Positions 4,826 to 38,406 of a stretch of 38,467 bases of DNA are shown here, one piece after another (the stretch's first letter is position 1; every line of letters starts with the position of its first letter). Origin of the DNA: a virus. The notes beneath the pieces are model-generated. The model did no database searches. It was given only the letters and a program-made list of their open reading frames with translations, and was not told the origin of the DNA. The DNA is taken from positions 1 to 38,467 of IMG/VR virus record IMGVR_UViG_3300017773_004419. The stretch is one strand, 5' to 3'. The position numbers and the translations under genes are program-made.

Positions 4826-6838
4826 ATGAATAAAAAGTTTGTTTTATCGGAGAATTTCATTAGTAAATATAAAAGAAAGAAAGCTCCGTTTGGTTTCAAT
4901 GGATTAGGTGAATTAGTTTACATGAGAACTTATTCAAGAATTAAAGAAGATGGAAAAAATGAACGATGGTGGGAAACCGTTCAGCGTGTTGTAGAAGGAA
5001 CTTACAATATGCAAATGAATCACATTGAATCACATCAATTAGGGTGGAATCCGTGGCAAGCTCAAAAATCGGCTCAAGATATGTATGACCGAATTTTTAA
5101 CATGAAGTTCTTGCCTCCTGGTCGCGGTCTGTGGGCTATGGGAACGCCTATCACAGAGAAAAAGGGATTATACGCCGCCCTAAACAATTGTGCTTTTGTA
5201 TCTACAAAAACAATAAAAGAAGATTACGCTAAACCTTTTTGTTTCCTTATGGATGCAAGTATGTTAGGTGTTGGTGTAGGATTCGATACAAAAGGTGCTG
5301 GAGAGATAGTAGTTAAAGGTATTCAAAAAGATAGAGATGAACAAGTATATGAAATACCAGATACTCGTGAAGGTTGGGTAGAATCTTTAAGACTACTATT
5401 GGAAAGTTACTTTCATGGACAAGCTCCTATGGAATTTGACTACTCAGAGGTAAGACCAGCTGGTGAACCAATAAGTGGTTTTGGTGGGGTATCAAGTGGA
5501 CACGAACCACTTTTAGAGGTTCATGAAGACATTAGAAAAGTTCTTAATAAAAATAGTGGCGAACCAATCACTATCACGACCATCGTAGATATAATGAATT
5601 TAATTGGTAAATGTGTTGTTGCTGGTAATGTAAGAAGAACTGCTGAAATTGTATTTGGAGATCCCGACTCAGACGAATATTTAGATTTAAAGAATTATAA
5701 AGTAAACCCACATAGAGAGACTTATGGATGGACATCTAATAATAGTATATTTGCAGAATTGGGTATGGATTATACTGCCGCTGCCAAACGAATTGTGGAT
5801 AATGGTGAGCCTGGATTTGCGTGGTTAGACAATATGAGACAATACTCTCGTATGAAAAATGGTGGAAACAACAAAGACCATAGAGTTATGGGTGGTAATC
5901 CTTGTTTAGAACAATCATTAGAATCATATGAGTTGTGTTGTTTAGTAGAAACATTTCCTGATAATCACGAAAATTTTGAAGACTATGCTAAAACTCTTAA
6001 GTATGCTTACCTATATGCCAAAACAGTTACATTAGGTAGAACACATTGGTCAGATACAAATAGAGTTATGTTAAGAAACAGAAGAATCGGGTGTAGTGTA
6101 AGTGGTGTTGCTCAGTTTGTTACTAATCGTGGATTGGATACATTTAAAGAATGGTTAAATAATGGATATGATGTAATACAAACTTGGGATAAACAATATT
6201 CGGATTGGATGGCAGTACCAAGATCTATCAAGACTACATCTGTGAAACCATCTGGTACGGTTTCACTTCTTGCTGGAGCGACTCCTGGATTACACTATCC
6301 TGAGAGTCGTTTTTACATTAGGAGAATAAGATTATCAAAACATTCAGAATTATTAGAACCATTAGAAAAAGCTGGATATAAGTTAGAACCAGCATTTGGT
6401 TCAGAGCAAACTACTATGGTTGTTGAAGTGCCCGTAGATGTGGGAGAGGGAATCAGAACTGCTTCCGAACTCTCCATTTGGGAACAATTCTCACTAGCTG
6501 CGTTTTTACAACGACATTGGGCAGACAACCAAGTAAGTTGCACGGTTACATTCAATCCTGAAACAGAGGCAGACCAAATAGCACCTTGTCTAAACTATTA
6601 TCAATATCACTTAAAGGGTATTAGTTTATTACCAAGACATGATTATGGTGCTTATCAGCAAATGCCCTATGAAGCGATTGACGAAGAAACTTACAATAAA
6701 GAGGTTGCGAAGTTAGGTAAGTTATCATTTGGTGTGATAAAGAACGAAGAGGCTGATGTCGATAAGTTCTGTAATAACGATAGTTGTGAGATACCACCAA
6801 TGCATGGTGATAATGATGACCAGGAATACACAAATTGA
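4826..6838 (+). CDS. nrdJ: class II (adenosylcobalamin-dependent) ribonucleotide reductase, monomeric
   Basis: Reduces ribonucleotides to deoxyribonucleotides using a 5'-deoxyadenosyl radical from coenzyme B12, supplying dNTPs for replication without oxygen or a second subunit. The 670-residue protein resembles the Lactobacillus leichmannii-type triphosphate reductase (739 residues). Cys122 in NNCAF is the N-terminal redox cysteine. NPCLE gives the radical Cys360 and the catalytic Glu362. Cys371 lies 11 residues on, the same spacing as 408/419 in that enzyme. A C-terminal C-x4-C (Cys649, Cys654) matches the shuttle pair that re-reduces the active site. All key residues are present, with no intein or intron interruption. 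AGGAAAAG precedes the ATG. The host must supply cobalamin and thioredoxin; neither is encoded here. Confidence 0.93.
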   Translation: MNKKFVLSENFISKYKRKKAPFGFNGLGELVYMRTYSRIKEDGKNERWWETVQRVVEGTYNMQMNHIESHQLGWNPWQAQKSAQDMYDRIFNMKFLPPGRGLWAMGTPITEKKGLYAALNNCAFVSTKTIKEDYAKPFCFLMDASMLGVGVGFDTKGAGEIVVKGIQKDRDEQVYEIPDTREGWVESLRLLLESYFHGQAPMEFDYSEVRPAGEPISGFGGVSSGHEPLLEVHEDIRKVLNKNSGEPITITTIVDIMNLIGKCVVAGNVRRTAEIVFGDPDSDEYLDLKNYKVNPHRETYGWTSNNSIFAELGMDYTAAAKRIVDNGEPGFAWLDNMRQYSRMKNGGNNKDHRVMGGNPCLEQSLESYELCCLVETFPDNHENFEDYAKTLKYAYLYAKTVTLGRTHWSDTNRVMLRNRRIGCSVSGVAQFVTNRGLDTFKEWLNNGYDVIQTWDKQYSDWMAVPRSIKTTSVKPSGTVSLLAGATPGLHYPESRFYIRRIRLSKHSELLEPLEKAGYKLEPAFGSEQTTMVVEVPVDVGEGIRTASELSIWEQFSLAAFLQRHWADNQVSCTVTFNPETEADQIAPCLNYYQYHLKGISLLPRHDYGAYQQMPYEAIDEETYNKEVAKLGKLSFGVIKNEEADVDKFCNNDSCEIPPMHGDNDDQEYTN

Positions 6839-6848
6839 AGAAAATATG

Positions 6849-6877
6849 CGGACAGGCACAGTACACACCTGTATAAA
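6849..6877 (+). promoter_or_regulatory. sigma70-like promoter for the TonB-dependent receptor
   Basis: CGGACA (6849-6854, 4 of 6 to TTGACA), a 17-base spacer and TATAAA (6872-6877, 5 of 6 to TATAAT) lie in the 76-base gap after nrdJ. Transcription would start near 6884, about 30 bases before the receptor ATG. An inverted repeat ACAGG-N11-CCTGT (6852-6856 / 6868-6872) spans the promoter and could be an operator. The run TATAAAAA also resembles a T4 late-promoter element (TATAAATA), so late transcription is an alternative. The call rests on pattern matching only. Confidence 0.5.
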
Positions 6878-6914
6878 AATGTGTCTATTTAATAACAAAG
6901 CTAGGAGACAGATT

Positions 6915-9647
6915 ATGAATTATCGTAATCTTATTTCCGCTCTAGTGATGTCAGTTGGTCTTGTTTTCGGACAAGCCGTTACTGGTTTTGTTGGAGTCGG
7001 AGAAAAACCACTTGGTGGAGCAAATGTAACAATAGAAGGTACTGAACTTGGTGGCGTAACAGACGCCGAGGGAAAGTTCGTCATAGAGACGGGTACTGGT
7101 ACTTTTGATGTTACTGCTTCATACATCGGTTATGTATCCCAAACCAGATCAGTAAAAGTTGGGGATATAGTTGGGAGTGTTAGTTTCGATTTGGAAACTG
7201 ATGTTGTTGCTCTCACAGCTCTTGAAGTCTTGGCTTCTCGTGCTGATGAAAAAACACCTGTTGCTTATACAACGGTGACTAAGGAAGAGATGGAAATGAG
7301 ATTAGGTTCTCAAGATATTCCAATGTCTCTGAATATGACACCATCAGTATATGCTACTGGTCAAGGTGGAGGTGCGGGTGATGCTCGTATCAATGTTCGT
7401 GGATTCAACCAACGAAATGTTGCTGTTATGATTAACGGAGTTCCCCAAAATGATATGGAGAACGGATGGGTTTATTGGTCTAATTGGGATGGTGTAGGTG
7501 ATGCTACATCTTCCATTCAGATGCAAAGAGGTCTATCTGCTGTTAATCTAGCTACACCATCCATTGGTGGAACTATGAATATAATCACCGATCCTGCTGC
7601 TCTTGAAAAGGGTGGTAAGTTCAAACAAGAAGTAGGTGAGGGTGGATTTCTTAAATCTACTTTGAATTATAACTCTGGTCTTATCGGAGATAAACTAGCA
7701 CTTAGTGGAACGATTGTTCGTAAAACTGGTGATGGTTTAATTGATGGTACTTGGACAGATGCTTGGGCATACTACTTCGGTGGTTCATATGCTGTAAGTG
7801 ATGACCAACGATTTGAGTTATATGCGATTGGTGCACCACAAAGGCATGGACAAAACCTATACAAACAGAATATTGCTACTTACTCACAAGAGTTAGCTGG
7901 AAGTGTCGATGGATACAATGATTCAGCTTATGTCGCTGGAGAGAAGTTTGAGCATGAAGCTGGTAGGTTTTTCAATCAGAATTGGGCTCCTGTTGATGAA
8001 AGTTATACAGGACAACAATACTGGTATATGTATGGTGCTAGAACAACTGATAGGTATAATGCTTCACTACTAAATGAAAGAGAAAACTTCTTTCATAAAC
8101 CACTTGTTAACTTGAATCATTTCTATGATGTAAATGATAGGGTTAATGTAAGTTCAATATTATATTGGAGTGGTGGTTCTGGTGGTGGAACTGGTACTTA
8201 TGGTAGTGTTAGTAGAGTACCTGCAATTGAAGGAAACAATTGGTGGGCTAGCTCACCTTGGATGTGGGATTGGAATGCTGAGATAGCACAGAACTCTGCT
8301 AATGTAGATTCTGCGTGGTCAGATACCGAAAACCGTTCAACAGGTATACTTCGTAATTCAATCAATAGGCAAAACACCTATGGTTTGATTTCCAAGTTAA
8401 ACTATGATGTCAATGAGGACTTAGAGGTTCAAGTTGGTATCGATTGGAGAACTGCTGGTATTGAACATGCTAGAGAGGTTCGTGACTTACTTGGTGGAGA
8501 CTACTATGTAGATTATGCTGATGACAATGCAGCTGATGGTAAGAAAGTTGGGTTAGGTGATATTATTGCCTATCATAACGAAACCACAGTTGATTGGTTC
8601 GGTGCTTTTGTACAAGGTAAGTACGACATCGCTAAGTTCAACCTTTATGGTATGGGTGGGGTATCCACAATTGGATATTCTTATCATGACCATTTTGCTG
8701 TTGATGCTGATGTGGTTGAAGCTCCATCTATTACAACCTTTCAAGTAAAAGGTGGTGGTGTTTATAATCTTGATGATAGATTATCAGCATTTGCTAATCT
8801 TGGGTATGTGGAGAAACCACCTATTCTTGATAATGTAATTGACTATGATGGTAATGTTGCTTCTAATCCAGACAACGAGAAATTTACGAATTTTGAAGTT
8901 GGTGGTAAATACAGCAGTGATTTGGTTGCTATCAAAGGTAGTTACTACAACACTCAATGGAAAGATAGAAACCTTACCAAATCTGTGACATCAGGTCAAG
9001 GTGATTCGGGTGATACTGATATCATCTATCTTACAGGCGTAAACCAAAGTCATACTGGTGTTGAAATTGAAACTAAGATTGCTTTACATGAGATGGTCGA
9101 ATTAGACTTCGCTTTCAGTAAAGGTGATTGGTTCTTTGATGGAGATGCCAAAGGTGATTACACAGAGATGGAATACAATGATGATAATCAAATCATTGGT
9201 CAAACATCTACTGAATACCAATATGCATTAGACAACCTTAAAGTTGGTGATATGCCACAAACTGCTTATGTTGGTGGTTTGACATTGAAACCAATTAAAG
9301 GATTGAATATTCAAGGATTGTTAAAAATCTATGAAGATAATTATGCTGATTGGTCACCAGATGCTCGTGAAGTTGATGAAGATGGTGTTGATAGGGCACA
9401 AGTTTGGAAGGCTCCTGGCTATTCTAAACTTGACCTACATCTATCTTACAAACTACCAGAGATTGCTGGTTTAGATTTGACTCTTAGTGGTCATATCTTT
9501 AATGCTCTTGACGATGTTTATGTTCAAGATGCTACTGATAACAGTCAGTACAATGGCTATGGTGATAAACTTCACTTGGCTCATAATGCTGAAGTATTCT
9601 TGGGTACACCAAGAAGTTTCAACTTAGGACTTTCTGTTAATTTTTAA
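6915..9647 (+). CDS. TonB-dependent outer-membrane receptor with N-terminal carboxypeptidase-like domain
   Basis: Outer-membrane active-transport beta-barrel of 910 residues, the kind that imports siderophores, cobalamin or oligomers using TonB energy. Residues 1-19 are a signal peptide (MNYR, hydrophobic core, cleavage likely after VFG). Residues about 22-100 form a CarboxypepD_reg-like beta-sandwich (GGVTDAEGKF, YIGY), an FCB-group hallmark. A TonB-box-like ALEVLASR follows. The plug is about 112-225, with INVRGFNQRNVAVMINGVP, NDMENGWVYWSNW and GGTMNIIT. The rest is barrel, ending LGLSVNF with the terminal Phe required for barrel assembly. An open frame extends upstream to 6756, but the ATG at 6915 has AGGAGA six bases before it and a signal peptide directly after. 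No frameshift; G+C is visibly higher than around it (28/60 at 7021-7080). Flanked by promoter and terminator between nrdJ and polymerase: host-derived, apparently functional cargo. Substrate unknown. Confidence 0.95.
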   Translation: MNYRNLISALVMSVGLVFGQAVTGFVGVGEKPLGGANVTIEGTELGGVTDAEGKFVIETGTGTFDVTASYIGYVSQTRSVKVGDIVGSVSFDLETDVVALTALEVLASRADEKTPVAYTTVTKEEMEMRLGSQDIPMSLNMTPSVYATGQGGGAGDARINVRGFNQRNVAVMINGVPQNDMENGWVYWSNWDGVGDATSSIQMQRGLSAVNLATPSIGGTMNIITDPAALEKGGKFKQEVGEGGFLKSTLNYNSGLIGDKLALSGTIVRKTGDGLIDGTWTDAWAYYFGGSYAVSDDQRFELYAIGAPQRHGQNLYKQNIATYSQELAGSVDGYNDSAYVAGEKFEHEAGRFFNQNWAPVDESYTGQQYWYMYGARTTDRYNASLLNERENFFHKPLVNLNHFYDVNDRVNVSSILYWSGGSGGGTGTYGSVSRVPAIEGNNWWASSPWMWDWNAEIAQNSANVDSAWSDTENRSTGILRNSINRQNTYGLISKLNYDVNEDLEVQVGIDWRTAGIEHAREVRDLLGGDYYVDYADDNAADGKKVGLGDIIAYHNETTVDWFGAFVQGKYDIAKFNLYGMGGVSTIGYSYHDHFAVDADVVEAPSITTFQVKGGGVYNLDDRLSAFANLGYVEKPPILDNVIDYDGNVASNPDNEKFTNFEVGGKYSSDLVAIKGSYYNTQWKDRNLTKSVTSGQGDSGDTDIIYLTGVNQSHTGVEIETKIALHEMVELDFAFSKGDWFFDGDAKGDYTEMEYNDDNQIIGQTSTEYQYALDNLKVGDMPQTAYVGGLTLKPIKGLNIQGLLKIYEDNYADWSPDAREVDEDGVDRAQVWKAPGYSKLDLHLSYKLPEIAGLDLTLSGHIFNALDDVYVQDATDNSQYNGYGDKLHLAHNAEVFLGTPRSFNLGLSVNF

Positions 9648-12342: not shown

Positions 12343-13065
12343 ATGAATAAAATCACATTAGATACCTTTATCCAAAAGTATAATCTTGGTGGTAGTATAA
12401 ATTCAGTAAAGTGGGAGTCGGATGGCGAAACACTTTCTACTCGTTTTATATCACCAGATAAAAGTCTTTTGGGTGAGTTATCACTAAGTAAACAATCACT
12501 TCCTAACTTTGAAGTAGGTGTTTATGACACACCACTTCTATCTAAGATGTTAGGTACTCTTGCTGATAAGGTTGACTTTAATGTAATTAAGGCACCATCA
12601 GATGAAGAACAAGCAGTAGCATTTGGATTTTCGGATGGTAAGATATCTGTAAGTTATGTACTTGCTGCTCTTGGTGTTATTCCTGATGTACCAGAACTAA
12701 AGAATATACCTGATTTTGATACTCTTATCAATATTGATACTCAGTTCATCAATTCTTTTATTCGTGGTAAAGGTGCTTTATCCGATGTAGAACATTTTTC
12801 TATTCAACCAGCAGATGGTGGTGTAGAGTTTGTTATCGGTTTTAGTGATATTAACTCAAATCGTATTAGTATAAAAGTTCAAAGTGGTGCAGTAAAATTA
12901 ACTGAACCAATCGTCTTTAATGCTAATCTATTTAAAGAAGTCTTGAGTGCTAACAAAGAATGTTCAAAGGCAGTTCTACAAGTTAGTTCAGGTGGTCTTG
13001 CTCATCTTGAGTTTAAGATAGACGACTTCAATGTTAAATATTACTTAGTATCACAGCAGGTATAG
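12343..13065 (+). CDS. DNA polymerase sliding clamp, gp45 type
   Basis: Processivity clamp: a trimeric ring that tethers polymerase to DNA and, in T4-like phages, also activates late transcription. The 240-residue protein is close to T4 gp45 (228). Sequence identity to clamps is low by eye. The call uses length, the beta-rich repeated architecture (for example RFISPDKSLLGELSL and VEFVIGFSDINSNRISIKV), the acidic character and the position between gp43 and the gp44-like loader. It has its own promoter and a good ribosome-binding site. The gene ends one base before the loader start. Confidence 0.82.
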   Translation: MNKITLDTFIQKYNLGGSINSVKWESDGETLSTRFISPDKSLLGELSLSKQSLPNFEVGVYDTPLLSKMLGTLADKVDFNVIKAPSDEEQAVAFGFSDGKISVSYVLAALGVIPDVPELKNIPDFDTLINIDTQFINSFIRGKGALSDVEHFSIQPADGGVEFVIGFSDINSNRISIKVQSGAVKLTEPIVFNANLFKEVLSANKECSKAVLQVSSGGLAHLEFKIDDFNVKYYLVSQQV

Positions 13066-15350: not shown

Positions 15351-15952
15351 TGGAAAGACATTGGGGTGAAAAACAAAAGAAACAAGAGCCAAGAAAAGCG
15401 GGTGCTGAAGCTACCGAAAAACATATTTCAGTTCAAGATAATAGAATATATTTTTATTCTGGTGTGAGTAGAAATGCTTGTTGTGAATTAAATAAAAAAA
15501 TAAGTGAATTGGAAACTAAATCTATAACATTATCACAAAATCTTGATACCGAACCACCACCTATTAAACTTTTTATTAACTCAGGAGGTGGAACTATAGT
15601 TAGTGGAATTGCTTCAATGGATACAATGTTAAGATGTAAAGTTCCAATACACACTTATGTTGATGGATTCTCTGCTAGCGCTGCAACTTTTATGACCGTA
15701 GTTGGAAGAAGAAGATATATGAGTAGAAATTCTTATATGTTAATTCATCAATTATCAACTGGTTTTTGGGGCACATACTCAAACTTTGAAGATGAAAAAC
15801 AAAATTTAGATTTGATGATGAAAAACATAAAAAATGTTTATAAAGAGTACACAAAGATACCGATGAAGAAACTTAACGAGATTTTAAAACATGATTTGAT
15901 GTGGGATGCTAAAACTTGTTTAGAATATGGAATGGTTGACGAGATTATTTAA
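15350..15952 (+). CDS. ClpP-like serine protease (peptidase S14)
   Basis: Tetradecameric ClpP-type protease subunit of 200 residues, with a complete catalytic triad. Ser110 lies in GFSASAATF (the GxxxS of ClpP), His133 in YMLIHQLS and Asp182 in KHDLMWDA, followed by LEYGMVDEI, the usual ClpP C-terminal turn. FINSGGGTIVSG forms the oxyanion-side strand (SPGG-like). About 25 charged N-terminal residues (KQKKQEPRKAGAEA) precede the core; no signal peptide is seen, so it acts in the cytoplasm. Phage ClpP homologues serve as prohead proteases or interact with host Clp ATPases. No capsid gene is nearby, so a role in host protein turnover or in altering the host ClpXP is possible. Confidence 0.9.
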   Translation: MERHWGEKQKKQEPRKAGAEATEKHISVQDNRIYFYSGVSRNACCELNKKISELETKSITLSQNLDTEPPPIKLFINSGGGTIVSGIASMDTMLRCKVPIHTYVDGFSASAATFMTVVGRRRYMSRNSYMLIHQLSTGFWGTYSNFEDEKQNLDLMMKNIKNVYKEYTKIPMKKLNEILKHDLMWDAKTCLEYGMVDEII

Positions 15953-16815
15953 TGGCTCATATATCACATAGTCAGTTTACCACTTATAACGATTGTAACC
16001 TTAAATGGAAACTTCGTTATATAGATAAGTTAGGAACTTTTGTAGGTAACATACATACTCTTTTTGGAACTGCTATGCATACCGTAATACAAGAATACCT
16101 ATCGGTAATGTATAATAAATCTATCGTTGCTGCTGATAAACTTAATATGGAATCTCGATTGAAAGAAGAAATGGTTATGGAGTTTACCAAGATAAAAGAA
16201 GGTAAGGGTGTTTTACCTTGTACTCAAGATGAGATGATGGAGTTTTATCAAGATGGTATATCTATATTACAGCACTTTAGAAAATATCGCAATAAATACT
16301 TTATGAAACAAAATTGGGAGTTGGTTGGTATAGAAGTTCCAATTGTCAAGGGTGTTCAAGATGGTGTTGATGTAATGGGATACTTAGATGTTGTATTGAG
16401 AAATAAAATATCTGGTAGAGTTGTAATTATTGACCTTAAAACTGCTACTCGTGGCTGGACAGACTTTCAAAAAAAAGATTTTAACAAAAAATCTCAGTTA
16501 TTACTTTATAAGAAATATTACTCTGAATTATTTGATGTTCCATTAGATAAAATTGATGTAATGTTTTTAATTTTAAAAAGAAAAATAGCTAAAAATTCTG
16601 ATTTTTTAATCACGAGATTACAGAAGTTTGAACCAGCAAATGGAGTTCCGAGTATAAATAAGACTATGCAAAAGTTTGAGGAGTTTAGAAAGGGTGTATT
16701 TGATGATAGAGGTAACTATCTCTTAGAAAGAAATTATTCGGCAAAACCAGGTAAGGCCTGTAAGTTTTGTGAATTTTATAATACGGAGCATTGCAAATGG
16801 GGGAAAATCCTCTAA
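15952..16815 (+). CDS. PD-(D/E)XK exonuclease with four-cysteine Fe-S cluster (Cas4/AddB-like)
   Basis: A 287-residue nuclease of the RecB/Cas4 family. It opens HSQFTTYNDCNLKWKLRYI, as in RecB-like domains. The active site comprises the His of FGTAMHTVIQEY, the Asp of GYLDVVLR and the IDLKTA strand (D-x-K), with QLLLYKKYY as the Q-Y motif. Cys15 plus C-terminal Cys270-x2-Cys273-x7-Cys281 make the four-cysteine iron-sulfur staple of Cas4, AddB and Dna2. It probably digests or processes DNA ends during replication, recombination or host-DNA breakdown. No cas1, cas2 or CRISPR array is nearby, so it is not a CRISPR adaptation gene here. The start overlaps the clpP stop by one base. Confidence 0.85.
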   Translation: MAHISHSQFTTYNDCNLKWKLRYIDKLGTFVGNIHTLFGTAMHTVIQEYLSVMYNKSIVAADKLNMESRLKEEMVMEFTKIKEGKGVLPCTQDEMMEFYQDGISILQHFRKYRNKYFMKQNWELVGIEVPIVKGVQDGVDVMGYLDVVLRNKISGRVVIIDLKTATRGWTDFQKKDFNKKSQLLLYKKYYSELFDVPLDKIDVMFLILKRKIAKNSDFLITRLQKFEPANGVPSINKTMQKFEEFRKGVFDDRGNYLLERNYSAKPGKACKFCEFYNTEHCKWGKIL

Positions 16816-17462: not shown

Positions 17463-17704
17463 TGGTTAATATGAGAGAAGATTTAATAGAAGCAAGTAAG
17501 TTGCATTTTAGAGCTCATATAGAAAAACACCGTATCAATGTAGAAAACCTTTTAGAAAAAGGTGTGGGTGTTCCAGAACATCCTGATATTATGGATACGA
17601 TAGAAAAAGAGTTAGAAATTATAGCTGAATATGATGACAAACTAAGTGTATTAAATAAATACTTTAATGACAGCTATACTAATAAAGAGGTTTTAAATGG
17701 CTAA
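17462..17704 (+). CDS. small conserved phage protein, function unknown
   Basis: An 80-residue, charged, predicted all-helical protein (REDLIEASKLHFRAHIEKHRINVENLL; then PEHPDIMDTIEKELEIIAEYDDKLSVL). No cysteine cluster, membrane segment or catalytic motif is visible. The pattern of an EKH-x3-NVE helix followed by a 'HxDIxxxIExEL' helix is one I associate with uncharacterised short proteins of marine T4-like phages. A second ATG lies three codons in (17471). It overlaps the first glycosyltransferase by 8 bases, so it is co-transcribed with the glycan genes, which says little about its own role. Confidence 0.55.
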   Translation: MVNMREDLIEASKLHFRAHIEKHRINVENLLEKGVGVPEHPDIMDTIEKELEIIAEYDDKLSVLNKYFNDSYTNKEVLNG

Positions 17705-19055
17705 GAAAAAAATATTACTAATGTCAGATGACTTAAGAATGCATAGTGGAGTAGCTACTGTATCTAAAGATATCGTATTTGAGACATTGAATGAATATGA
17801 TTGGGTTCAGATAGGTGGAGCAATTAAACATCCTGAAAAAGGTAAAGTTTTTGATATGTCTCAAGGTCTTGAAGAATTTGGAATTAAAAATGGGTATTTA
17901 AAAGTTTATCCTGTTGATGGTTATGGTAATGAAGATATTCTTAGAGAGGTGATGGCTATAGAAAAACCAGATGCTATACTTCACTATACCGATCCTCGTT
18001 TTTGGATTTGGTTTTATAATATGGAGTCTGAAATTCGTAGAGAAATTCCTATCTTCTATTATAATATTTGGGATGATTTACCAGATCCACAATACAATAC
18101 GAACTACTACAAAAGTTCTGATTTATTGATGGGTATATCAAAACAAACTTATGGAATCAATAAAAGATTATTACCTAATTATGAAGATTGGCAGATAACC
18201 TATGTACCACACGGCATATCAAATAGAAGATTCCATAAAATAGAAGATGATAATATTTCACTTTTAGATTTTGATGCTAAACATGGTCTATCAGATAAGA
18301 AATTTAAAATACTTTATAGTAATAGAAACATTAGAAGAAAACAACCTGGTGATGTTCTATTGGCTTATAAATATTTTATGGATGAGTTAACACCTAAACA
18401 AAGAAAAGATTGTGTTCTTATCTATCATTGTACTCCTTGTGATAACAATGGAACAGATTTACCAAGAGTTCATAAACACTTGTGTCCTGAATATGATGTT
18501 TGCTTTACATATGGTGAGAAAAATAGACCATTTGGTGATAGTGAAATGAATTTATTATTTAACTCTGCTGATGTTTACATTAATCTTGCTAGTAACGAAG
18601 GATTTGGATTGGGAAGTGCTGAAGCACTTACTGTTGGGACACCAATTGTTGTAAATGTAACAGGTGGATTACAAGACCAATGTGGATTCAAGAAAGATGG
18701 TGAGTTTTTAACACCAGATGATTATGTTGAATTGGGTACTAATCACAAAGGAACTTATACTGAACATGGTGAGTGGGTATTTCCTGTTTACCCAACAAAT
18801 CGTTCCTTACAAGGTTCACCGATGACACCATATATTTGGGATGATAGATGTCAGCCAGAAGATGCTGCTGTTCAGTTGAAAAAACTGTATGACTTGGGTA
18901 GAGAAGAGAGAAAAAGACTTGGTTCGTTAGGAACTGAGTTCTGTAAAGAAAATCAAATGACATCAAAAGTTATGGGACAAAATTTTATTGATTCTATGAA
19001 TGGTGCATTTGATAATTGGAAACCAAAATCAAGATATACGATGGAGGCAGTATGA
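17697..19055 (+). CDS. GT-B glycosyltransferase, family 4-like
   Basis: A 452-residue glycosyltransferase of GT-B fold. The N-terminal domain begins KKILLMSDDLRMHSGVATV, with the glycine-containing acceptor loop. The C-terminal donor domain shows TYVPHGI, YSNRNIRRKQPGDVL, then SNEGFGLGSAEALTVGTPIVV, whose E-x7-E pair (Glu in NEGFG and Glu in SAEAL) is the GT4 nucleotide-sugar signature. It is cytoplasmic, with no signal peptide or membrane helix. It would transfer a sugar from a nucleotide donor with probable retention. Together with the following GT4-like gene it opens the glycan block. Acceptor (LPS, capsule, virion or DNA) cannot be told from sequence. Confidence 0.85.
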   Translation: MAKKKILLMSDDLRMHSGVATVSKDIVFETLNEYDWVQIGGAIKHPEKGKVFDMSQGLEEFGIKNGYLKVYPVDGYGNEDILREVMAIEKPDAILHYTDPRFWIWFYNMESEIRREIPIFYYNIWDDLPDPQYNTNYYKSSDLLMGISKQTYGINKRLLPNYEDWQITYVPHGISNRRFHKIEDDNISLLDFDAKHGLSDKKFKILYSNRNIRRKQPGDVLLAYKYFMDELTPKQRKDCVLIYHCTPCDNNGTDLPRVHKHLCPEYDVCFTYGEKNRPFGDSEMNLLFNSADVYINLASNEGFGLGSAEALTVGTPIVVNVTGGLQDQCGFKKDGEFLTPDDYVELGTNHKGTYTEHGEWVFPVYPTNRSLQGSPMTPYIWDDRCQPEDAAVQLKKLYDLGREERKRLGSLGTEFCKENQMTSKVMGQNFIDSMNGAFDNWKPKSRYTMEAV

Positions 19056-20407
19056 AACGCTCAGTAGTTATGATTGCACCTTTTAATACTCGCAGTGGGT
19101 ATGGTGACCATGCTCGTTCAATCTATTATTCTATTATGGATAGGGATGATTTAGATATTAAATGTTTAGATGTCAAGTGGGGAAACACTCCACGAAATCA
19201 TTTAAGACCAGAAGTTTCAAGACATAAAAAGTTATTAGACAGTTTTGTAACACAAGACCAAATAAAAGGTCAACCAGATGTTCTCATGGACATTAGGATA
19301 CCAAATGAGTTTTCTACGGGTGCTAAAATAAATATTGGCATAACTGCTGGTGTAGAAACTGATGTTGTATCACCTGAGTTTTTAGAAGGTATGAATAAGA
19401 TGAATTTAAATATAGTTCCATCTAAATTTACAGCATATACATTTACTAAATGTACTTACGATAAAATGCAAGATACTCCTAACGGACAAAAACAGAAGAT
19501 TGGTGAAATTAAAAATGAAAGACCTATTCATGTTTTATTTGAAGGCGTGGATACAGATGTTTATTGTCCAAAACAGAAACACGAGTTAGAAAAAGGTCTT
19601 TATGAAGAGTTAGATGACCTTATTAAAGAAGAGTTTGCTTATCTTCATGTAGGTCAATGGGGTAATGCTGGTTTTGGTGAAGATAGAAAAAACATCGGTG
19701 TTATGATTAAATCTTTCTTAAAAGCTTTTGCTAATATTCCCAACGCTCCAGCACTTGTTTTGAAAACTAATGGTGCTAACTTTAGTATTCTTGATAAGGT
19801 GGAGATAAAGAAGAAAATACAATCGGTAAAGGATATGTTTGACGGAGTAAAATTACCAAATATATACTTAATACATGGTGATTTTACTATCCAAGAAATG
19901 TCAACACTTTACAACCACCCAAAGATTGGTGCTTTTATTACTTGCACACATGGTGAAGGTTTTGGACGACCAATGTTAGAGGCCAGTTGCTGTGACTTAC
20001 CTGTAATTGCTAGTAAGTGGAGTGGTCATCTTGACTTTCTTACAGATGCCGAGTCTATGTTGATTGATGGGTTTATAAAACCAGTTCCTAAGTCTGCTCT
20101 TTGGAAGCCAATTATCGTAGAACCATCTCAATGGTTTGATGTAAATGAAGCAGATGTAGTTAGAAAAATTAGAACCTTTCACAAGAAGAGAAAGTTAATA
20201 CAAAAAAAAGCTGCTCGTTTAGGTAAGAAAAACAGAAGAGAATTTTCCCTAATATCAATGAAAAATGAATTCAATAAAATATTAGATGAAATATTAAAAA
20301 GTACACCACAATCTGTGGGTTTAAAACTACCTAAACTCAAAAAAGTTAGTAATCAAAGTTCACAACCAACAAAGTTAAAATTACCAAAATTAAAAAAGGT
20401 AACTTAA
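19052..20407 (+). CDS. GT-B glycosyltransferase, family 4-like, with repeated basic C-terminal tail
   Basis: A 451-residue GT-B enzyme. It opens RSVVMIAPFNTRSGYGDHARS (glycine-rich acceptor loop) and includes HVLFEGVDTDVYCP, the start of the donor domain. It also has HVGQWGNAGFGEDRKNIG and THGEGFGRPMLEASCCDLPVIA, the E-x7-E donor motif. The last 35 residues carry two copies of LKLPKLKKV separated by about nine residues, a basic tail absent from ordinary GT4 enzymes. The start is the ATG at 19052 with GGAGG four bases upstream, overlapping the previous stop by ATGA; a longer frame from 19016 is unlikely. Product is a cytoplasmic or membrane-surface glycosyltransferase. Confidence 0.85.
   Translation: MKRSVVMIAPFNTRSGYGDHARSIYYSIMDRDDLDIKCLDVKWGNTPRNHLRPEVSRHKKLLDSFVTQDQIKGQPDVLMDIRIPNEFSTGAKINIGITAGVETDVVSPEFLEGMNKMNLNIVPSKFTAYTFTKCTYDKMQDTPNGQKQKIGEIKNERPIHVLFEGVDTDVYCPKQKHELEKGLYEELDDLIKEEFAYLHVGQWGNAGFGEDRKNIGVMIKSFLKAFANIPNAPALVLKTNGANFSILDKVEIKKKIQSVKDMFDGVKLPNIYLIHGDFTIQEMSTLYNHPKIGAFITCTHGEGFGRPMLEASCCDLPVIASKWSGHLDFLTDAESMLIDGFIKPVPKSALWKPIIVEPSQWFDVNEADVVRKIRTFHKKRKLIQKKAARLGKKNRREFSLISMKNEFNKILDEILKSTPQSVGLKLPKLKKVSNQSSQPTKLKLPKLKKVT
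20321..20401 (+). repeat. duplicated LKLPKLKKV peptide motif in a glycosyltransferase tail
   Basis: Two nine-codon units, 20321-20347 and 20375-20401, encode the same peptide LKLPKLKKV. Five of the nine codons differ synonymously between copies (cta/tta, cct/tta-type changes at Leu, Pro, Leu, Lys and Val). The amino-acid identity therefore outlasts the DNA identity, which suggests selection for the peptide rather than a fresh duplication. Confidence 0.75.
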
Positions 20408-20826
20408 TGGATGATTTCACACTCAGAGTTAAATGCCCAAATGATGATAAGAAGTGTTCAGTATCAGGTGGAGAGATAAGAGAGTCAATGATATTGTTGG
20501 GTGATAGTGAACAGAATATGCAATGTTTGGAATGTGGATATGCTTCTAATAGTGGTATGAAAACTCATATCAAACCTTTTCCTGAAGATTTCAAAGATGT
20601 GTGTGTTGAAACAGATAAGGGTAGATATTGGGCACCATCGGTATTCACTACAGAAAACTATAATGTTATTCCTATGGTTGATGAAGGTATATTAAAGTGG
20701 AGAATATTTGCTCATCAGGATCCTGAAACAGAAGTAATAGTTCCACTATTTTCTGATGCTTATAAAATGGTAGAAAAAATGGAGAAATTAATTGGCGAGA
20801 CGATACAACAACAGACGAATAATTAA
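20407..20826 (+). CDS. hypothetical protein with zinc-ribbon-like cysteines
   Basis: A 139-residue protein of unknown function. Four cysteines near the N-terminus, Cys10, Cys17, Cys40 and Cys43 (MQCLECGY), could bind zinc. The middle holds RYWAPSVFTTENYNVIPMVDEG, and the C-terminal third is acidic and helical with LFSDAYKMVEKMEKLIGE. There is no catalytic motif of a sugar enzyme, so it may be a general phage protein lying in the glycan block by chance. The start shares a base with the preceding stop (TAATG). Confidence 0.6.
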   Translation: MDDFTLRVKCPNDDKKCSVSGGEIRESMILLGDSEQNMQCLECGYASNSGMKTHIKPFPEDFKDVCVETDKGRYWAPSVFTTENYNVIPMVDEGILKWRIFAHQDPETEVIVPLFSDAYKMVEKMEKLIGETIQQQTNN

Positions 20827-21250
20827 GTCTTTTCAGACAGTTCCTTCTCGTAGATTAATTCCTGGTATGATAGTTACATTTAACTATTCGGAGAGTGGTA
20901 TAATGGATCCTCGTCCTATTTTACTTTTCTTACATCAAGATAATAAAACAAAGAATGTAGAAGGTTTAAATCTAAATTATCTTAATCCAACAAAATTAAA
21001 AAAGCTATTTCAAGTAATAGATTTTAAAAAAACCAAATTAGATGAAATTGAAAATTTAATTAATTTGACCGAGGATTATTTTAGAATTCAGATATCAAAT
21101 CCAAAGAAAAGAAGTGCTATGTCTACTAAAAGATTTTATAGTGATATTATATCATCTGATATATTTTTTAAAGAATCATATAGAGCCTATAAAATATCAA
21201 AATTAACATCACTAAAGGTAACTCAAATAAATATGGAATTTATTAAATGA
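20792..21250 (+). CDS. hypothetical basic phage protein, TTG start
   Basis: A 152-residue basic protein. It begins ARRYNNRRIIKSFQTVPSRRLIPGMIVTF-like text in which RPI, LFL and LNLNYL follow, and ends with a YRAYKISKLTSLKV segment. The N-terminal basic run and a 'PGMIVTFNY' beta motif resemble uncharacterised proteins of marine T4-like phages (possibly virion or DNA-binding), but I cannot name the family. The TTG at 20792 is preceded at seven bases by GGAG (20781-20784) and no ATG lies nearby, so TTG is the likely start. It overlaps the previous gene by 35 bases and the next by ATGA. Confidence 0.6.
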   Translation: MARRYNNRRIIKSFQTVPSRRLIPGMIVTFNYSESGIMDPRPILLFLHQDNKTKNVEGLNLNYLNPTKLKKLFQVIDFKKTKLDEIENLINLTEDYFRIQISNPKKRSAMSTKRFYSDIISSDIFFKESYRAYKISKLTSLKVTQINMEFIK

Positions 21251-37455: not shown

Positions 37456-38406
37456 ATGAAGAATAAAAAGATATTAATACTAGGAGGTACTGGTGCTTTA
37501 GGGCAAACATTAACTAAGAGATATTATCAAAATAACCATATAATTGTTTTTTCAAGAGATGAACATAAACAAGTTAATATGAAGAAAGATTATAAAAATG
37601 TTTATTATCAGATAGGTGATGTAAAAGATAAAGATAGTGTCTGTCAAGTTATAAATGAATACAAACCAGATGTAGTCATAAATACAGCTGCATTAAAACA
37701 TGTTCCTATTTGTGAAGAACACCCATATGAAAGTGTAAAAACAAATATTATAGGACATAAAAATTTAATTGATTGTATTAGTAGTTGTAATCATAAGATA
37801 GAGACATTAATGTTTATTTCTACAGACAAAGCCTGTAAGCCAATAAATGTTTATGGTATGTGTAAAGCTATCTCAGAAAGACTTTACATAGACTATGCTA
37901 ATAAACAATCTGATATAAAAGTAGTGCTGTGTAGATATGGTAATGTATTAGAATCTACTGGTTCAGTAATACCTTTTTTTAAGGAACTATTGGATAAAGG
38001 TGTTAGTTCATTACCAATTACTGATAAACGAATGACTAGGTTTTTAATATCATTAGAGGAGTCTGTAGATTTAATTGAATGGGCTTTAAATGAACCATCA
38101 TCTCATGGTTGTATTATCGTTCCTAAATTAAAATCACTATTGGTAACAGATTTAGCTATTGAACTAGGGTATAGTTATGCAGGATTAGATGATGTGGATT
38201 TAGAATATGTTGGTATAAGATCTGGTGAAAAAATACATGAAGATATGGTTAGTTTAGAAGAGTCTTTACGAACAAAAAAATATAATAAATATTTTATGAT
38301 AACCAATAACATTATCAACAAAAATGCTTGGTCTTTTTCTTCAGATAGTGATGTCATGCCTTTTGAAGAAATTAAAAATTTTTTAAAAGAAAAAAATGTG
38401 ATTTGA
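37456..38406 (+). CDS. UDP-sugar 4,6-dehydratase (inverting; PseB/FnlA/CapE-like SDR)
   Basis: A 316-residue polysaccharide-biosynthesis SDR. KILILGGTGALGQTLTKRY, FSRDEHKQ (a phosphate-binding SRDE as in PseB) and NTAALKHVPICEEHPYE precede STDKACKPINVYGMCK, with Tyr133-x3-Lys137 and the DK pair of inverting 4,6-dehydratases. CRYGNVLESTGSVIPFF is the substrate loop. It would turn UDP-GlcNAc into a UDP-2-acetamido-2,6-dideoxy-4-ketohexose. Whether it follows the pseudaminic/formylated-sugar or FucNAc route depends on genes beyond the edge. It starts one base after the formyltransferase stop and ends overlapping the next ATG (TGATG). Confidence 0.88.
   Translation: MKNKKILILGGTGALGQTLTKRYYQNNHIIVFSRDEHKQVNMKKDYKNVYYQIGDVKDKDSVCQVINEYKPDVVINTAALKHVPICEEHPYESVKTNIIGHKNLIDCISSCNHKIETLMFISTDKACKPINVYGMCKAISERLYIDYANKQSDIKVVLCRYGNVLESTGSVIPFFKELLDKGVSSLPITDKRMTRFLISLEESVDLIEWALNEPSSHGCIIVPKLKSLLVTDLAIELGYSYAGLDDVDLEYVGIRSGEKIHEDMVSLEESLRTKKYNKYFMITNNIINKNAWSFSSDSDVMPFEEIKNFLKEKNVI

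Follow-up and report, generated by a model that had tools for sequence, protein, structure and literature searches.

Why should a phage glycosyltransferase end in two identical nonapeptides, both basic and rich in leucine? The question is raised by IMGVR_UViG_3300017773_004419, a virus record of 38,467 bases, which was analysed over its full length and is called the window here. The record encodes T4-type replication proteins (a UvsX-like recombinase, a DnaB-like helicase, DNA polymerase and clamp-loader subunits); behind these come glycosyltransferases and sugar-nucleotide enzymes in a row, and the genes around the tailed enzyme are of the sugar-nucleotide and surface-glycan type. The features under discussion are the following.

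17697..19055, plus strand: upstream glycosyltransferase, 452 aa, matching PF00534 (E=4e-9)
19052..20407, plus strand: GT4-type (GT-B fold) glycosyltransferase with tail, 451 aa, assigned by PF00534, phrog_2170, AlphaFold and 3oy2
20309..20404, plus strand: disordered C-terminal extension, about residues 420-451, predicted by AlphaFold
20321..20347, plus strand: unit 1, LKLPKLKKV, putative docking motif, seen in the sequence and kept in relatives
20348..20374, plus strand: linker SNQSSQPTK, 9 residues, variable, 5-12 residues long in relatives
20375..20401, plus strand: unit 2, LKLPKLKKV, putative docking motif, seen in the sequence and kept in relatives
20407..20826, plus strand: downstream protein, 139 aa, possibly zinc-binding, with weak zinc-finger matches in relatives only

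By its family matches and predicted structure, the tailed enzyme is a GT4-family glycosyltransferase of the GT-B fold, for which sugar transfer is predicted, and the enzyme family as such is ordinary. The protein scores above the cut-off with PF00534 (Glycos_transf_1; E=4.8e-7, 29.9 bits, cut-off 26.4) and matches the phrog_2170 glycosyltransferase (E=3.2e-19); a sequence search of solved structures with its profile gave no match. Translation likely starts at ATG 19052 and stops at TAA 20405-20407; the alternative TTG start at 19016, called mechanically, is less likely, because the relatives align from MK. The AlphaFold model, computed from an alignment of 41 sequences, has a mean pLDDT of 89, with 330 of 451 residues at 90 or above, and its top Foldseek matches are GT-B enzymes, HepE, PimB', BshA and WaaG among them. 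The closest solved fold, 3oy2 (E=7.7e-18, 13% identity), is that of B736L from chlorovirus NY2A, also a viral GT-B protein, but one of an algal virus. A review presents B736L as a retaining type-B enzyme with GDP-mannose as the best ligand, which conceivably, though not provenly, adds sugar to virus glycans (PMC4691112). The last helix of the phage model spans residues 400-417; no secondary structure follows it, and residues 421-451 are modelled as coil with pLDDT of about 40-50.

The C-terminus of the enzyme reads ...STPQSVG-LKLPKLKKV-SNQSSQPTK-LKLPKLKKV-T, with a single residue after unit 2. The earlier note had described two identical nonamers whose codons differ synonymously at five of nine positions, and this is exactly so (codons 3, 4, 6, 8 and 9). 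No further copy of LKLPKLKKV is found in any frame of the whole window, and a looser pattern, applied to the 43 listed ORFs, picks up only two internal look-alikes, IEVPIVK (15952-16815) and IIVPKLK (37456-38406).

Relatives were collected without using the tail. A first search with core peptides only gave 25 relatives, and all 19 with a complete C-terminus have the tail: L016 has a single unit, and the other 18 have two each, variants like LKLPKLNKA included. A deeper tail-blind search covered the best 80 of 524 relatives, so that more distant tail-less ones may exist; with the window, 83 loci were examined. The C-terminus is complete in 69 of these, 52 of them distinct; 13 end at a contig edge, and one (L082) has a broken frame, the C-terminal piece of which bears the tail. 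Every one of the 52 distinct complete C-termini is tailed, 51 with two units and one with one. The pattern used to define a unit demanded P4, a hydrophobic residue at positions 3 and 6, and K/R/Q/N/T at position 8; it matched 104 times, and 103 matches were counted as units after KYVPEFPKE of L089 was dropped as spurious. L3, K5 and L6 are invariant in all 103 units, the two leucines never being replaced by I, V, M or F, nor K5 by R. Position 2 is lysine in 91 units and never arginine, position 7 is lysine in 95 and position 8 in 98; P4, which the pattern demanded, is present twice in 51 of the 52 tails.

The proposal of the earlier note that selection acts on the peptide is borne out by this set. 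Pairs of relatives have, on average, an identity of 0.90 and 0.87 in the two units, compared with 0.33 in the linker (426 of 1275 pairs, those with linkers of equal length) and 0.40 in the 20 residues that precede the tail units, and the 103 units are encoded by 90 different DNA 27-mers. The same note had named recent DNA duplication as a finding that would speak against selection. Recent tandem duplication seems unlikely as a general explanation: five of nine codons differ in the window, and in 51 genomes the paired units agree, on average, in 0.552 of their codons, against 0.501 expected from codon usage. A weak within-genome excess does persist, in that 0.552 exceeds the between-genome value of 0.447 and none of 5000 re-pairings reached it, a comparison confounded by relatedness and codon use.

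A second tail-blind search, in another branch of the family, was followed for the best 80 of at least 595 relatives, all with complete C-termini and 77 of them distinct. In these 77 the last 45 residues always contain one to four [LIVM]Px[LIVM] cores; a PxLKK-like pattern is seen in 69 and strict LPxL is absent from five. LPxL occurs 128 times in the 3465 tail residues of this set and 4 times in the remaining 30433. The distant tails are often tandem, as in LKLPQLKKIELPKLKKV, and their leucine and proline are more constant than the basic residues; some have few lysines or interspersed acidic residues, for example VELKLPTLQLPKLQKING. The main enzyme never lacks the core motif in 161 distinct pairs with the upstream enzyme. 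Tail-less homologues, which the earlier note had also named as contrary evidence if they show no phenotype, are thus missing from the sets examined, as far as complete C-termini go.

Among named phages, the tail is found in gp180 of phage immuto (NC_055915), where the order of genes (glycosyltransferase, glycosyltransferase, small protein, GT2) is the same as here. The protein differs in being only 39.5% identical, in having three units, partly divergent (LPTLKKI, LPQTKKV and IPRLKKL), and in being annotated simply as a glycosyltransferase. A loose pattern matches immuto in nine places, two in the gp180 tail and seven elsewhere; one of the latter, VPSIKK, is located 12 residues from the end of a frame of 108 aa. 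Microcystis phage Mel-JY01 has a decayed form of the tail. The metagenome-assembled genome 'bacterium TMED46' (L187) contains a 457-aa protein closely related to the tailed enzyme, on what is probably a phage contig binned with that genome.

The composition of the tail, with a net charge of +9 and eight Leu/Val residues, suggests a peripheral membrane anchor, in which the basic, leucine-rich tail would keep the enzymes on the inner leaflet, close to a lipid-linked acceptor. Enzymes of sugar-nucleotide clusters often act on lipid-linked sugars, the tailed enzyme belongs to such a cluster, and multiple copies would help anchoring. We nevertheless consider this explanation unlikely. Every unit contains a proline; the helical hydrophobic moment, 0.198, is equalled or exceeded by 83% of about 3,000 shuffles of its residues; and AlphaFold models the tail as disordered, so that the amphipathic helix offered in the earlier note is not borne out, although a non-helical kind of membrane binding is possible. 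Membrane binding would, moreover, tolerate exchange of L3, L6 and K5, none of which is ever exchanged in the 103 units, and some distant tails are poor in lysine or interspersed with acidic residues. The same charge, together with the replication genes in the window, could indicate a tail for nucleic-acid binding or solubility with the basic residues as its working part, which is very unlikely, given that leucine and proline outlast lysine in the wider family and that linkers and charges vary.

The peptide is also found on the upstream glycosyltransferase, a distant relative of the tailed enzyme, and there it is at the opposite end. In the window this upstream enzyme is untagged and begins MAKKKILLMSDD. 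In other phages, the pattern M-x-x-hydrophobic-KLPKLKK was detected in 33 contigs and begins 28 distinct frames, 20 of which are upstream glycosyltransferases; the other 8 are 18 aa or shorter, and three of these are C-termini of the main enzyme. A signal that works only at the C-terminus is rejected on account of these N-terminal copies. In a set collected without regard to the tag (best 80 of 197 relatives), 5 of 54 distinct upstream N-termini are tagged, counting variants like LPKLNK, and one of the 49 untagged rows starts inside the protein. Outside this set the frequency is inflated, because the tag itself was searched for; 18 upstream enzymes are tagged in the 161 distinct pairs from the loci gathered by then. 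On a tree of 143 upstream enzymes, 20 of them tagged, at least 10 changes of tag state are needed, seven of them forced by well-supported branches, compared with a mean of 19 when tag states are shuffled; this tree was built quickly, contains some long branches and rests on sequences thinned by similarity separately among the tagged and the untagged. The tag is therefore clustered, yet was gained or lost many times. In the AlphaFold model of one tagged upstream enzyme (L040), residues 1-22 have pLDDT below 50 and are thus predicted to be disordered.

Are the N-terminal tags fresh copies of the C-terminal ones? DNA of the two was compared for 16 loci, 13 of them with both tags, and most copies share 0-3 of 6 codons; sharing is higher in L005 (4 in one copy), L101 (5), L263 (5) and L250 (6 in one copy). 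As the two enzymes mostly encode their tags with different codons, the tags are usually not fresh copies, and we reject that origin as a general explanation.

The presence of the tag on either of two enzymes that occur together in 161 distinct pairs could also be explained by a structural element: the units would pack on their own enzyme or on the neighbouring one in a fixed heterodimer, and a contact between two glycosyltransferases needs no third partner. Monomer models give the tags low confidence and no regular structure, and both the copy number (1-4) and the length of the linker vary, which makes such packing highly improbable.

Beyond the two glycosyltransferases, we searched for ORFs ending in the pattern K-[LF]-P-K-[LF]-K-K-[VIM]-x-TAA/TAG. 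It is found in 78 viral contigs, as opposed to four for a scrambled pattern of equal composition, the frames of which are only 9-43 aa long. This control and the tail-blind relatives lead us to reject chance or a low-complexity repeat as the source of the tail. Among 73 distinct ORFs that end in the pattern, from the loci gathered by then, 61 are the tailed enzyme. The remaining 12 are the downstream neighbour (L078, L079, L083), a small protein discussed below (six loci) and three frames of 62, 13 and 26 aa. In 84,980 bacterial and archaeal genomes the pattern is seen in 28 contigs, in 25 of them within frames of 50 aa or less; the rest are the relative from 'bacterium TMED46' and two frames of 157 and 275 aa, taken as chance matches. 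The tail alone, searched by tblastn against 50,697 phage records, gave no match, which for a short query of low complexity is weak evidence.

The product of the next gene downstream is untagged in the window, where a search for a zinc-finger family also gave no match. Homologues of this protein end in LPKLKK at L078, L079, L083, L108 and also L421; the first four are the tagged cases in 70 complete distinct rows out of 75 distinct rows. The search of other proteins for the motif, which the earlier note had advised, was thus negative within the window and positive on neighbouring proteins of some relatives.

Could the peptide be a signal for a chaperone or protease, for example a DnaK site or a degron? 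It lies at an exposed end, and a hydrophobic core with lysine flanks resembles chaperone sites. The peptide is also carried by the N-terminus of the upstream enzyme, and in bacteria and archaea it rarely ends a long frame (3 of the 28 matches are in frames above 50 aa), so we give this idea very little weight.

We think it probable that the tail is a multicopy short linear docking motif that tethers consecutive glycosyltransferases to a common putative partner. The last ~30 residues of the enzyme would form a disordered tail, usually of two tandem units, each an L-P-x-L core with mostly basic residues after it. These units would fit into a pocket or groove of a protein partner shared within the locus, and the presence of two would give avidity. 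In an extended helix of threefold symmetry, one side would be formed by L3, L6 and V9 and another by K2, K5 and K8, as would suit a hydrophobic groove with an acidic rim; the threefold (polyproline-II-like) hydrophobic moment of the unit is 0.733, a value reached by 5% of about 3,000 shuffles. Carried by the second glycosyltransferase at its C-terminus, in some phages also by the first at its N-terminus, and now and then by the product of the next gene, the motif would gather enzymes of the glycan pathway on one scaffold or acceptor, for instance a glycosylated virion protein or a hub enzyme. In phages such as the present one, with the tag on the main enzyme only, no other enzyme would be recruited by it.

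Docking is the better of the two roles offered in the earlier note, because the peptide is present also on two neighbouring proteins, at either end, and thus on the products of three adjacent genes; the amphipathic anchor fails in its helical sense. The peptide has several traits of short linear motifs, namely a site predicted to be disordered, few fixed positions with free surroundings, and recurrence on other proteins and termini. N-terminal and downstream tags are both minority traits (5/54 and 4/70), and co-tethering is therefore not needed by all these phages. The charge of +9 counts against a view of the tail as docking only, as membrane or nucleic-acid binding is possible. Twenty records were searched whole with a looser pattern, which gave many loose matches, chiefly in the bacterial genome of L187, that were not read in context; matches that were read in context place the peptide itself only on the main enzyme and, in one record, on the N-terminus of the upstream enzyme. 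As these matches sat on neighbouring genes, they give no independent clue to the partner.

The small protein mentioned above belongs to another phage group and is unrelated to the glycosyltransferases. It is encoded near the terminase, ends in KLPKLKK[VI] (L135, 6796-7080, and L097, L104, L110, L113 and L124) and is 88-94 aa long where a start is listed; the seven relatives found keep K[LM]PKLK[KT]. A family search gave no convincing match and the phage records no match. No tagged glycosyltransferase is found beside it, so that either a host partner or convergence is suggested. BLAST comparison of the ORFs of these small phages with ORFs of other viral loci, made in search of a shared partner, gave no candidate; weak matches link ORFs of L113/L229 and L097 to unidentified ORFs of L316, L324, L327, L351 and L299, and immuto and two loci of the group that encodes the small protein have a tail-fibre-like protein in common (34% over 173 aa and 30% over 236 aa). 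Separately, a 70-aa frame cut at its 5' end (L268, 1-210) has a charged linker and then the terminal sequence KEIKFPKLKKQGD, and may be another tagged protein.

A broader version of the docking proposal, which we hold to be doubtful, is that LPxL(K)K serves as a general recruitment tag of Bacteroidota-infecting phages, directed to one hub, perhaps of the host, and carried by consecutive glycosyltransferases in a large lineage and independently by the terminase-side small protein of unrelated phages. With a Bacteroidota host factor as the partner, the occurrence of the peptide in two unrelated phage groups would be accounted for. Hints at such hosts are that immuto infects Flavobacterium, that it has the tail-fibre-like protein in common with two loci of the other group, and that the window encodes a protein of SusC-like make-up (6756-9647, described below). 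Against it, the host of Mel-JY01 is listed as cyanobacterial, though the tail of that phage is decayed.

Docking by short peptide motifs is familiar from eukaryotes and from sliding clamps. The PIP box and the bacterial beta-clamp motif resemble the peptide described here in having few fixed residues, in occupying disordered ends of unrelated proteins at either terminus, and in being multicopy, whereas the spread of the present motif within these phages is confined to a few adjacent genes. Its residues are not known to match clamp-binding motifs; the DNA polymerase of the window ends in TIEKFF, which to our eye looks more like a clamp peptide than the LPxL unit does. T4 alpha-glucosyltransferase reportedly contacts the sliding clamp gp45, and would be a parallel case of a phage glycosyltransferase docking on another phage protein, docking being putative in our case. 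The T4 enzyme acts on DNA, in contrast to the sugar-nucleotide and surface-glycan setting seen here, and is not known to have an LPxL tail.

Text searches of 5.39 million papers of the open literature found none of the strings KLPKLKK, LKLPKLKKV or LPKLKK, nor the name of Microcystis phage Mel-JY01, and in work on phage glycosylation and on motifs at disordered ends the titles and opening parts of abstracts mention nothing comparable. As far as these searches show, a tag shared by glycosyltransferases is undescribed. A peptide that recurs at opposite ends of two consecutive phage glycosyltransferases offers a concrete, testable way into the question of how glycan building is organized by phages. 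The identity of the partner would tell whether a virion protein, a host factor or a membrane complex is the target, and the motif is usable as a marker for other members of such assemblies. If the broader, doubtful version should hold, LPxL(K)K would be an address label of a phage glycosylation assembly, gained and lost by whole genes as needed.

Three other ORFs of the window deserve mention. Within the glycosyltransferase run, a 152-aa protein (20792-21250) weakly matches phrog_429, a DNA end protector (E=0.0005). A 240-aa ORF (12343-13065) precedes the clamp-loader genes, in the position of the sliding clamp gp45, and has no family match. A 963-aa ORF (6756-9647), located between the ribonucleotide reductase and DNA polymerase genes of the phage, combines a TonB-dependent receptor plug with carboxypeptidase-regulatory-like domains, a make-up typical of Bacteroidota SusC-type proteins; its last residue is Phe, as in many outer-membrane proteins.
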